The notes under the pieces were generated by a model. That model made no database searches. It worked only from the letters and a program-made list of their open reading frames with translations, and was not told the DNA's origin. Below, one piece after another: positions 17,843 through 31,002 of a DNA stretch of 31,002 bases. Location: positions 1 through 31,002 of IMG/VR virus record IMGVR_UViG_3300011115_000670; one strand, written 5' to 3'. Source of the DNA: a virus. The position numbers and the translations under genes were made by a program. Within the stretch, counting starts at the first letter, position 1. Each line of letters starts with the position of its first letter.

Positions 17843-19219
17843 CTACCTAGTCACGGGAAAGAATGTAGCAGTTGAGCGCTTAAAATATAGCCCCACGGAT
17901 CCAGTGCCATCGTTGCGGCCTTTCGCCTGTATTGCCGAAATATAAAAACGCGGTAGCTCGTCGGCGTCAGCCGTAGGACTTTGCGGCGCCGATGTCAGAG
18001 GATCTTCAGCCGGGCGGTGCAACAGCACGATTTTGTCCGCGTCCTGCTCGATGTCGCCCGATTCGCGGAGGTCGTGAATCCGCGGCACGCGCTCGTCGCG
18101 CTCGGAATCGCGGTTCAACTGCGCAAGCACCATGACAACGCAATCATTGCGCAGCGCGAACTGCTTTAGCGCCCGCGATACGCGGCCCACACTTTGCGCC
18201 CTATTCTCGCCGCGGGCGGGTGTAGCGTCAGGCATCAGCCCGATGTAATCGACGACCACGAGCCGCGGCGGCGTCTGCCGAGCCCGCAAGACCTCGGCGC
18301 GTGCCTGCATAGTTGCCAGGCTGACATTGCCGGCGGCGACGACCTCGAGCGGAGCAGAGGAGATGCGCTGCGCTGCGTCGCGAATAGCCTGCACATCTTT
18401 CGGGTGCGTTTTCGGCGTGATTGCTCGCAGCGAGATGCCGGCGATCGTTTGCGCAAAGTTTAGCGCCAGCGTGCTGCCGATGACCTCGAGCGAAGCAAAC
18501 AGCACCTGCTGGTTCTGTTTCAGCGCGACATTCAGCGCGATTTGCCTGGCGAGCGAAGACTTGCCGACACTCGGGCGCGCCGCGACGACGACCATTTCGC
18601 CGCGCTGGATCAGGCCGAAGATCCTGTCCATGTCTTGAAAGCCCCAGGACAGCGCCCCCTCGCGCATGCCGTCGCGCTCACCGGAAATGCGCGCCGTGAT
18701 CTCGGCGTCAGCTTTCACGAGCGATTCCGCCCAGGATTCGTTACGCTGTTGCGCCTCGATCGCTAAGATCCTGGCACCCGCCTCGCGCACGAGATCCTCG
18801 GCCGGTTCAGATCCGGCTTCGCGGATGTTGGTCGTGATCGCGCCGGCCTCGCGCATTAGCTGCCGCAGGATCTCGCAGTGGCGCACCCGGGTAGCGAAGA
18901 ATTTTGCCCGCGCTGTCGTCGGGGTGTTGCGCGCTATCGCAAGCACGTTATCGTGCGTAACCTCGAGGATGGCCTGGGTCGCTTCGCGGTCGCCCTTGGC
19001 GGCCTTTAGCTTAACCCAGACGGTCGTTTCATCAACCGGCTCGCCGGCCAGGAGCATCTTGCTGATGATGCCCCAGATGGACTGCGCGATCGGATCGACG
19101 AATGATTCCTCGCGCAACTCGAAGCCCATAGCCATGCCGACGACGCCGGCAGGATCAATGAAGGCGCAGCCCACCAGTGCGCGCTCTGCGTCCTGGTCGA
19201 ATGTCGGATCTGGTTTCAT
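17843..19219 (-). CDS. DnaB-like replicative helicase
   Basis: 458 aa, ATG at 19219 overlapping the initiator stop. N-terminal DnaB-type helical domain (about 1-110, DQDAERALVGCAFIDPAGVV), linker and a RecA-like motor domain. Walker A ARPSVGKSS (214-222), Walker B LVVVDYIGLM (320-329), LAQLNRDSE (365-373), the DnaB H4-type DLRESGDIEQDAD (383-395) and the C-terminal KGRNDGTGSVGLYF arginine-finger region are all present. It unwinds the fork 5'-3'; no separate phage primase or polymerase was seen, so host enzymes are probably used. Directly follows the initiator that presumably loads it. Confidence 0.93.
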   Translation of the reverse strand: MKPDPTFDQDAERALVGCAFIDPAGVVGMAMGFELREESFVDPIAQSIWGIISKMLLAGEPVDETTVWVKLKAAKGDREATQAILEVTHDNVLAIARNTPTTARAKFFATRVRHCEILRQLMREAGAITTNIREAGSEPAEDLVREAGARILAIEAQQRNESWAESLVKADAEITARISGERDGMREGALSWGFQDMDRIFGLIQRGEMVVVAARPSVGKSSLARQIALNVALKQNQQVLFASLEVIGSTLALNFAQTIAGISLRAITPKTHPKDVQAIRDAAQRISSAPLEVVAAGNVSLATMQARAEVLRARQTPPRLVVVDYIGLMPDATPARGENRAQSVGRVSRALKQFALRNDCVVMVLAQLNRDSERDERVPRIHDLRESGDIEQDADKIVLLHRPAEDPLTSAPQSPTADADELPRFYISAIQAKGRNDGTGSVGLYFKRSTATFFPVTR

Positions 19220-20028
19220 GCGATCCCGAACTGGCGTTTCACATCTGGCAGATCGGCCAGGATGTCAGCCGGCTGCGATGGCTCGGCCTTTGTCGCATTC
19301 TTGATCTGCTGTCGCGTCCAGTCGTCCGCCGGCGGAGCCACGCATGCGGCCCAGTGCTTCGCCAGAGCAGGCGCGGTTAAGGCGGCGCTCGGGAACTTGC
19401 GGCCATAACGATGGGCGCGACGTTCGATCTCCGCGGGCGTTACCCCGGGCGAGGCTGCGCGGATGTCGCGAAGCGCTGCGTTCAGCGCGCCGCGGCCAGA
19501 TTTCGTCAGGCTACGGGCGTCGGTTCCGGTGGCTGAACATAGAGCCTCGAAGACCAGATCTTTTGGCCTTTCTTCCGCGACGGCGTCAGCCGGCGCAATA
19601 GTGTTCCCTTCCCCTTCCCTTCCCTTCCCTTCCTTAAGGCACGCGTGATGCACGCGATCGTCACGCGTGGTCAACGCGTCAAGGTCTTCAGCGTGAGGCA
19701 TTTGCGGTAACTCACTCGACCTCTCCTTATTATTGATGATCTGGTGCTTTTTCCATGTCGGAATCGCCCCAAACCACGCGTCTCTGACGCGATACTTAAC
19801 GAGAAATCCACGCGTGGTCAACGCGTCGAGCACGCGTGAAAAGTCGCATTCATCGTAAGGCAGAATTTGCGCTTTTAGCCTCCTCGGTTCCCAGCGGAAT
19901 CGACCCTCTCGATCTGCGGCGCACCATAGGCCGACGAATGCTATTCTGACCGGCAGCGCTGATTCCTTTTCTAAATCATGCAGACCATCGTGCATGAAAA
20001 ACTCCGGCTTAATTGTTCTGATTCTCAT
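19216..20028 (-). CDS. Replication initiator / replisome organiser
   Basis: 270 aa, ATG at 20028. The first 110 residues (MRIRTIKPEFFMHDGLHDLE..., FVGLWCAADREGRFRWEPRR, LKAQILPYDECDF, VLDALTTRGFLVKY) are the winged-helix N-terminal domain found in phage replisome organisers. A low-complexity KEGKGREGEGN linker (about 132-142) and a C-terminal helical domain (FEALCSATGTDARSLTKSGRG..., AHRYGRKFPSAALTAPALAKHW) follow. It should bind origin repeats and load the helicase encoded next. The coding sequence itself carries two arrays of 11-bp repeats, as in lambda O. A structured leader lies just upstream. Confidence 0.8.
   Translation of the reverse strand: MRIRTIKPEFFMHDGLHDLEKESALPVRIAFVGLWCAADREGRFRWEPRRLKAQILPYDECDFSRVLDALTTRGFLVKYRVRDAWFGAIPTWKKHQIINNKERSSELPQMPHAEDLDALTTRDDRVHHACLKEGKGREGEGNTIAPADAVAEERPKDLVFEALCSATGTDARSLTKSGRGALNAALRDIRAASPGVTPAEIERRAHRYGRKFPSAALTAPALAKHWAACVAPPADDWTRQQIKNATKAEPSQPADILADLPDVKRQFGIA
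19604..19635 (-). repeat. Homopurine tract with CCCTT/AAGGG repeats
   Basis: About five tandem CCCTT units on the plus strand give, on the coding minus strand, four or more GGG runs separated by AA. They encode the KEGKGREGEG linker between the two domains of the initiator. The tract could form a G-quadruplex in mRNA or single-stranded DNA, or triplex DNA, next to the iteron arrays. Confidence 0.6.
19604..19841. other. Candidate replication origin inside the initiator gene
   Basis: Array A: four 11-bp units start at 19640, 19651, 19662 and 19673 (CACGCGTGATG, CACGCGATCGT, CACGCGTGGTC, AACGCGTCAAG). Array B: units at 19775 and 19786, a degenerate one near 19798, then 19809, 19820 and 19831. 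The core is (C/A)ACGCG(T/A). Between the arrays lies an A+T stretch TTATTATTGATGAT (19727-19740), and next to array A a pure pyrimidine tract 19604-19635. An 11-bp period is not a codon multiple, so the repeats are kept at DNA level and lie on one helix face. Lambda ori, inside O, is the closest known design. Confidence 0.6.
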
Positions 20029-20176: not shown

Positions 20177-20674
20177 TCAAGTTCCCCGACGAATAGTCAC
20201 GAGCACACCGCCGGCCTCGCCGGGCTGCGCCCACTCCTTGCCAATCGCGAGCATGTCCACCTGCGCGTCGTCGCCCCAGAATCGCCCGTTGCGCGTGATG
20301 CGGTCGAGGACCAGCTTGGCGAGGTTGTCTAGATCTGGCTTGCTCGTGTGCGGCGCGGGTGCGCTGTCCTTTACCATACCATTTGTGCGCAAGTGTGATT
20401 TCGGCCGCTCGAAGTAAAACTGGAGGATCACCGAGCATCGACCGGCAAAAGGTTCAAGCGAATGCGTCCTGGCGATCTCGACCAGCTGCGCATCCACGGC
20501 GGTTTTCCAAGCATCTGCGGCGTCGCTATCATACATGCGCGCCACGAACTTCGCGCCCATGCGCCGAGCGAATGCCCGCGGCCTCGGCTGGCCTTTTGGA
20601 TCCCCAGGAATCCAGAAACGCAACTCAGTGCTTGGATCCGGTGAGTGCACGGTAAACGCAAGATTCAGACGCAT
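20177..20674 (-). CDS. rusA: RusA-family Holliday junction resolvase
   Basis: 165 aa, ATG at 20674. The RusA signatures are clear: start of the fold FWIPGDPKGQPRPRAF (20-35), the catalytic KPDLDNLAK (112-120, with Asp114 and Asp116) and FWGDDAQVDML (132-142), then KEWAQPGE. RusA cuts four-way junctions and can help resolve recombination intermediates before packaging. It overlaps the upstream HTH gene by 50 bp, so a later start is possible. It fits with the exonuclease and annealing protein encoded further upstream. Confidence 0.9.
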   Translation of the reverse strand: MRLNLAFTVHSPDPSTELRFWIPGDPKGQPRPRAFARRMGAKFVARMYDSDAADAWKTAVDAQLVEIARTHSLEPFAGRCSVILQFYFERPKSHLRTNGMVKDSAPAPHTSKPDLDNLAKLVLDRITRNGRFWGDDAQVDMLAIGKEWAQPGEAGGVLVTIRRGT

Positions 20675-29914: not shown

Positions 29915-31002
29915 TTAGCGGACGCGACGAGCGCGGAGGAATCCGTAAGCGGCAACTGTTCCTGCGGAAAAATACGAGCGAGCAATCAAGTAAATCGTGG
30001 TGGTGGACGATATTGAGACACGCCATGTTGGAGCGTCTTGAAACCAGCTATTGCTGTCACTTGAAAGACTCATTGGATTCTTGGAATATGAACCAGTAGG
30101 ACCGGCTGTTCCAGAGGCGGTGGCAATGCCTTGCAAGAATTGAGTGACGGTTGCTCCGCTAGTACTGTAACCAACATTCCCATCAACATCCCAATCACCA
30201 GCAGTCAGACTTATGCTGGTGACATCGGATATTACTGTATTCGACAACGAAACTGCACTTCCGCTCTCAACTGTGCTGGTGATGATTTCACCTACATACC
30301 CAGCCGCCGCGCTGTCGTTGGTGGCCGTACCCTTGAACGTGCTGCCAGCACCGTTGGCCGTGATCTTCCCCGCAAACGTCGCGTTCTGGCTGCTGTCGAG
30401 CGTCAGGGCGGTGGTGGCTCCGTTTGTTCCAAGAAAAAGCGATCCAGATGAACTAGATGTAATCCGGGCGTATTCGGTTCCAGCTACGAAGAAACGATAA
30501 GCAGCGATTCCTCCAGTTGCAGCATTCAGTCCAATCACAGAGTTTGCGCTGCCATCTATCCTTAATTCGCCAATTCCACCACGATACAAGCTCGTATCCG
30601 TCCCAAACCCAATCCCGCCCGCGCTGGTGGTGTGGGTGGCGAGTTGGAGCATTCCATTGCCGGAATTCGTCGCAGTTCCGAGCAGGAAATTTCCGTCGAT
30701 GATGCCCAAATTTACGTTGTTACGTCGAAACTGTAATGTGCCTCCGGTTGGGACATTGAGGTAGAGCGTTGTACCGTCGCTCAACAACGAGTAATTGCCT
30801 ACTGCTGGAGAAGTCTGGTTAAGCCATAAGCCGGAATGGCTCGCTACGGTTGAATTGTAGTCAAGTCTGTTGCGTCCGCTGACGGTGAGGTTGCCGGCTT
30901 GATCGACTGTAAATACGTCCGTTCCTGCGCCTAGTCCGCTCGTATTGACTGCGAATTTAGATGTGCCAGCGAGACCTACGCGCACCCATCCGGGCGCAGA
31001 CG
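29915..31002 (-). CDS. Tail fibre protein, C-terminal part
   Basis: This is the 3' portion of the gene that starts at 1540; bases 30901-31002 duplicate 1-102. It encodes further Gly/Ser/Thr-rich shaft sequence, including stretches such as GIGFGTDTSLYRGG, followed by a compact last domain of about 140 residues beginning near GYVGEIITSTVESGSAV. That domain contains SLTAGDWDVDGNVGY and ends YGFLRARRVR, a C-terminus I recognise from many phage tail-fibre proteins, where it is the probable receptor-facing tip. An internal ATG at 30985 could be mistaken for the start if the contig is treated as linear. The frame is the same as that of the 1540 start, so this is one gene. Confidence 0.85.
   Translation of the reverse strand, partial: SAPGWVRVGLAGTSKFAVNTSGLGAGTDVFTVDQAGNLTVSGRNRLDYNSTVASHSGLWLNQTSPAVGNYSLLSDGTTLYLNVPTGGTLQFRRNNVNLGIIDGNFLLGTATNSGNGMLQLATHTTSAGGIGFGTDTSLYRGGIGELRIDGSANSVIGLNAATGGIAAYRFFVAGTEYARITSSSSGSLFLGTNGATTALTLDSSQNATFAGKITANGAGSTFKGTATNDSAAAGYVGEIITSTVESGSAVSLSNTVISDVTSISLTAGDWDVDGNVGYSTSGATVTQFLQGIATASGTAGPTGSYSKNPMSLSSDSNSWFQDAPTWRVSISSTTTIYLIARSYFSAGTVAAYGFLRARRVR
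30901..31002. repeat. Terminal redundancy, right copy
   Basis: Second copy of bases 1-102. See the left copy. Confidence 0.97.

Follow-up and report, generated by a model that had tools for sequence, protein, structure and literature searches.

Iteron-based origins located inside the gene of their own initiator have been described in a handful of model replicons. In phage lambda, four 18-bp iterons lie in tandem within the gene of an initiator that binds DNA with its N-terminal part, and the adjoining opening region is A+T-rich with the purines on one strand (PMC5043065). Gp38 of SPP1 binds direct repeats in its own gene (oriL) and hands over to the phage DnaB-type helicase (PMC6316719). The RepA_N initiators (pSK41, pTZ2162) have a winged-helix N-terminal domain of ~120 residues, an origin inside the rep gene that encodes the central linker and a swappable C-terminal domain (PMC5703833); their iterons are semi-palindromes around a poly-A tract (PMC7145576). 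R-loop origins, those of T4 and ColE1, are opened by a persistent transcript hybrid (PMC5043065; PMC3016281). For the initiator family described below, no description of the 11-bp arrays or of the purine tract was found in the literature, and an earlier mention is possible (review by Weigel and Seitz 2006).

The DNA analysed here (the window), a virus record, is 31,002 bases long and represents a fragment; the evidence consists of sequence comparison and structure prediction. A megablast of the whole window against named phages gave no match. The repeats located in it are, with a probability of about 86%, a theta-type phage origin inside the initiator gene, where the encoded protein would bind, an adjoining tract would open and a helicase would be loaded. 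This is the location given in the original prediction, and it is supported by the initiator family, the DnaB neighbour, the phasing of the repeats and the freezing of codons in relatives.

The initiator gene is located at 19216..20028 on the minus strand and encodes a replication-initiation protein of 270 aa. The profile phrog_16167 (phage replication-initiation protein) covers aa 1-112 with an E-value of 2.7e-42, the protein had no match in Pfam, and a search of solved structures with its sequence returned nothing convincing. The N-terminal domain (aa 1 to ~112) was modelled by AlphaFold2 (pLDDT 94) as a DNA-binding winged helix, in which helix 63-72 is predicted to occupy the place of the recognition helix. 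It is followed by a linker, encoded by the second repeat array and the purine tract, and by a variable C-terminal domain. Directly downstream lies the gene of a DnaB-type replicative helicase (17843..19219, minus strand; PF03796, E-value 7.8e-54), the start of which overlaps the initiator stop codon; this is likely the helicase loaded at the candidate origin. A RusA-like Holliday junction resolvase (20177..20674, minus strand) is encoded upstream of the initiator in the same early block, and RecT-like and exonuclease VIII-like proteins are encoded further on.

Nine strong 11-bp ACGCG units were found inside the initiator gene, split over two arrays. In the direction of the gene the order is array 1 (19841-19775), a spacer of 91 bp, array 2 (19683-19640) and a purine tract of 32 nt (19635-19604), all on the minus strand. 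Array 2 (19640..19683, gene nt 346-389) lies 3' of the conserved domain and consists of the four units CACGCGTGATG, CACGCGATCGT, CACGCGTGGTC and AACGCGTCAAG at exact 11-bp steps, as originally described. Array 1 (19775..19841, gene nt 188-254) overlaps the codons of the recognition helix and has cores at 19776, 19787, 19810, 19821 and 19832. The five to six units announced for it proved to be five strong ones and one degenerate ACGAG unit; what had been missed is a phase slip of 1 bp within the array, since the middle step spans 23 bp across the degenerate unit, one 12-bp step among 11-bp steps. The 19-bp stretch reported to occur in both arrays is present at 19662 and 19809, within a 22-mer of 21/22 identity. 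The window has eight ACGCGT sites, seven of them in 19641-19837. Six CGCG pairs were observed at exactly 11 bp, against a mean of 0.53 in synonymous-codon shuffles in which protein and codon composition were held, and six pairs were reached in 2 of 50,000 shuffles. The earlier claim that repetition of the protein does not explain the 11-bp repeats is thereby borne out.

Two further scans and three branch-specific scans for relatives yielded 378 usable genes, of which 175 remained after dereplication at 90%. Both arrays are kept in close relatives (L006-L009, 71% protein identity) and in more distant ones (L010-L012, 52-59%). Codon usage in the helix F-S-R-V-L-D-A-L-x-T-R-G was compared over 64 dereplicated relatives with a GC content of 39-63%. 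CGCG cores occur at the same three positions in 59/64 of them, by means of fixed synonymous codons: Ser is TCA in 62/62 (22% elsewhere in the same genes), Arg CGC in 61/64 (33%), Val GTG in 59/64 (31%), Ala GCG in 63/63 (32%), Thr ACG in 61/61 (37%) and Arg73 CGT in 63/64 (18%). The stretch that encodes the predicted recognition helix (aa 63-72; 19813..19842, minus strand) is thus spelled by the iteron sequence itself. Homologs that retain the protein and lose the DNA repeats had been named as a finding that would refute the origin, and the opposite was found, the repeats being kept by fixed synonymous codons.

In array 2, which lies outside the conserved domain, the 11-bp period persists even where the repeat sequence has changed. 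Autocorrelation was computed for 142 dereplicated homologs whose purine run measures 18 nt or more. Over the 80 nt that precede the tract it was 0.423, 0.374 and 0.345 at lags of 11, 22 and 33, against a mean of 0.268 over all lags; two control regions of the same homologs, downstream and at the gene start, had no peak at these lags. The region of array 1 peaked at lag 11 (0.336). Throughout the family 383 iteron spacings of 11 bp and 35 of 10 bp were counted, which places the iterons in phase with the DNA helix. In L057, L174 and their relatives the spacing alternates between 10 and 11 bp, with a mean near the helical repeat, and arrays of up to eleven units are present.

An A+T-rich patch between the arrays was part of the original prediction. 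It is present in the window, where the spacer (19684..19774, minus strand) contains 51.6% A+T against 41.3% in the gene and reaches 67% over 30 bp only, and it was dropped as the conserved partner of the arrays after no clear A+T peak was found across the family. That partner is the purine tract, which follows array 2 in the direction of the gene. The predicted homopyrimidine flank is indeed a run of 32 nt at 19604..19635, reading AAGGAAGGGAAGGGAAGGGAAGGGGAAGGGAA on the coding (minus) strand and homopyrimidine on the plus strand, and it is the proposed opening element of the origin. This tract is of the (GGGAA)n type, contains 44% A+T and is the longest pure purine or pyrimidine run of the window, the runner-up measuring 15. 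In the family it is repetitive, with units of 4-6 bp, and begins at a median of 8.5 nt after the last iteron core. In 154 of 175 loci of ~5 kb every other purine run, on either strand, was shorter, and the longest run outside the gene had a median of 12; a pure tract of at least 18 nt is absent in 33/175 homologs. The all-purine glycine codons GGA and GGG account for 575/607 glycine codons in the tract zone and for 1138/2478 elsewhere (p ~1e-125), and all-purine arginine codons are likewise enriched (p ~1e-89). Four G3 runs occur in the tract of the window and in that of only 69/175 homologs, and formation of a G-quadruplex was rejected as a shared property of the tract. A second G-quadruplex-like motif is located in the tail-fibre region of the window (30600-30630, minus strand).

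By the precedent of lambda, SPP1 and pSK41, the initiator would be expected to cover the iterons, deform the DNA and melt a nearby region in which the helicase is loaded. The winged-helix N-terminal domain would bind the 11-bp units with the ACGCG core, spaced at one per turn of the helix, and bound monomers or dimers would align on one face of the DNA, wrapping or bending it. The resulting complex would then open the adjoining G-rich polypurine tract, and the C-terminal domain would help to load the DnaB helicase encoded next door. Compared with lambda, the candidate has 11-bp units in two arrays and keeps the purines on one strand beside the iterons as a pure run of 32 nt, but this run is G-rich instead of A+T-rich. 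The replacement of the expected A+T-rich element by a G-rich purine tract raises a testable question on how such an origin is opened. SPP1 oriL, likened here by layout, differs in having an A+T-rich DUE and a separate helicase-loader gene.

One answer would be that the transcript made across the gene, G+A-rich at the tract, stays hybridised there to the C+T-rich template strand. With nearest-neighbour energies, the tract was the best RNA:DNA-hybrid site of the gene in 112/120 homologs, with a mean of -11.8 kcal/mol per 24 bp where the median over the gene was -1.6, and in the window it is the most hybrid-favoured site of the whole coding strand; this preference stems from base composition alone, and the A-rich tract of lambda does not have it. 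Because the tract hybridises so well with its RNA copy, opening by an R-loop, as in T4 and ColE1, is reasonable though unproven. ColE1 has no iterons, unlike the candidate. That an R-loop supplies the opening done by A+T-rich DNA in lambda is a less certain step, somewhat less likely than not. The main rival to this opening step, quite possible at somewhat less than an even chance, is that the tract works as a strand-asymmetric element for unwinding or single-strand capture, bound by the initiator or by a host primosome protein without an R-loop. The opening region of lambda is also almost entirely purine in one strand (PMC5043065), O proteins bind a single strand of that region (PMC7466680), and the repetitive tract units of 4-6 bp would suit an array of strand-binding sites. 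The tract is, however, common to initiators with unrelated N-terminal domains, so contact with the winged-helix domain cannot be its sole reason.

This last point emerged when 2.9 million viral contigs were scanned with nothing but the tract, (GGGAA)3GGG and the actinophage version (GGGGAACA)2GGGG serving as queries. Among the matches listed, 86 of 120 loci with the first query and 115 of 120 with the second fall in an ORF with the same winged-helix domain, always on the coding strand; dereplication reduced these to 75 and 69 among the matches listed. The other 34 GGGAA loci among the matches listed include replication genes of the DUF1376 type (PF07120, phrog_22470/3992) and proteins with a lambda-O-like C-terminal profile (phrog_678), several of which have repeats of their own, of 11, 12 or 21 bp, immediately before the tract. 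In locus L487, for instance, a 12-bp series of ctgtgacagagg, ctgtgacagaga and ctgttacag precedes GAAGGGAAGGGAAGGG. DUF1376 (PF07120)-type proteins with a GGGAA tract were noted in L403, L481, L487, L498, L426 and L436, in several cases after their own 11- or 12-bp repeats, and DUF1376 may be an iteron-binding initiator domain. The presence of the GGGAA tract in other initiator families suggests that it is tied to the origin and not to one initiator family.

The same arrangement, in which helix-phased repeats precede a stretch of G and A only, was found in replication genes of phages spread over many bacterial phyla, with the proviso that the taxonomic labels of the contigs may be wrong where they derive from metagenome bins, and also in replication genes that start with different DNA-binding domains. 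It is tentatively proposed that the (GGGAA)n or (GGGGAACA)n tract serves tailed phages in general as an origin element, placed on the coding strand just after the iterons whatever the initiator family and replacing the A+T-rich element through an R-loop or strand capture; this extension has a little less than even odds. If the layout marks origins, one simple DNA signature would predict them in hundreds of phages, cultured as well as uncultured, among them mycobacteriophages of the Butters and Schnauzer type. In other RepA-type mycobacteriophages no repeats were found and the origin was guessed to lie upstream of or inside repA (PMC7157519).

Actinophage initiators with GGGGAACA or close repeats are located in L391 (2501-3370, Butters), L390 (2495-3388, Schnauzer), L397 (2501-3403, LunaStella) and L398 (2501-3346, PFR1), and their tract genes predict, from sequence, the origins of these four cultured phages. 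Clear 11-bp iterons of the TCGCGA type in two arrays are present in Butters and PFR1; those of LunaStella are weaker. Repeats of CTGATTCC were seen in HK639, Bordetella phage IFTN1, Pseudomonas phage Fyn8 and Acinetobacter phage NL. Homologs that lack a long tract and carry CTGATTCC (GGAATCAG on the other strand) near the same place are L388 (2495-3358, HK639), L392 (2495-3325), L394 (2495-3403) and L399 (2492-3301). These repeats are possibly a strand-reversed version of the tract, for which the reciprocal search gave no support: the 7-bp pattern CTGATTCC, which doubled as negative control for the tract-first test, lay in an initiator ORF in 1/52 loci, and a third tract type is not claimed.

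The winged-helix domain was found with unrelated C-terminal domains, as 9,867 related domain pairs compare with 503 related C-terminal pairs. The domain with its iterons and tract, attached to mostly unrelated C-terminal domains, thus behaves as an exchangeable module. In the lambdoid phage HK639 the homolog stands where lambda has O, with cII on one side and a P-like/ren pair on the other. Downstream of other homologs, in several named phages, a DnaB helicase, a DnaC-like loader or a primase/helicase is encoded.

Iteron-bound initiators can act as repressors, and a protein bound within a gene is a possible roadblock. The arrays could thus be operators through which the protein blocks transcription of its own gene, with the origin elsewhere, but both lie more than 180 nt inside the gene, the adjoining tract is conserved and their position recalls the origins that lambda, SPP1 and pSK41 are known to carry inside genes, so this explanation is improbable. 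A partition or packaging site is more improbable still: phased direct repeats are also known in centromere-like sites and terminase genes lie within ~5 kb, but no partition genes were recognised among the scanned proteins, and in homologs the arrays track the initiator gene, next to which helicases or loaders are encoded in several named phages. Selection on the protein, through repeated LDALTTR motifs and a flexible K/E/G/R linker, is hardly credible as the source of the DNA pattern, for while the linker is of low complexity, K and E codons are always purine and LDALTTR occurs twice in the protein, it is contradicted by the codon shuffles, the frozen codons of array 1, the GGA/GGG bias of the tract zone and an 11-bp period that holds where repeat sequence and protein differ.

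For the preferred reading of an origin inside the initiator gene, GC skew was uninformative in a fragment of this length, and no clear change was seen at the arrays over the 31-kb window. In VvAW1 the detrended GC-skew minimum lies ~1 kb from the origin, a proximity confounded by gene orientation. The origin had been called lambda-O-like, which holds for the way it is expected to work and not for descent: profile comparison of O with the initiator by hhalign gave a probability of 0.3%, that is, no similarity. The plan of RepA_N initiators recurs in the protein: a predicted winged-helix N-terminal domain, a candidate origin inside the gene, a linker encoded by it and an exchangeable C-terminal domain. 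RepA_N structures (4pql, 4pt7, 5kbj) are among the structural neighbours of the model with Z-scores of 5.9-6.6, tied with unrelated winged helices, and 54 members of the initiator family had no match with PF06970 (RepA_N) or any other Pfam entry. The initiator resembles RepA_N initiators in plan and, weakly, in fold.

CGCG was present in array 2 of 73/74 genes with Arg at helix position 65 and of 4/17 without it. On the tree this link lost its significance, and since two supported independent pairs remain, the association is suggestive only. In the initiator family the recognition helix may be related to the iteron sequence by a natural code. Each branch has iterons of its own: CACGCGT with DFSRVLDAL helices, GCACATGC/CACGTG with related helices without Arg, GGGAAGCA with FDMAETL and CTCACTGA with DCEPLIQEL.
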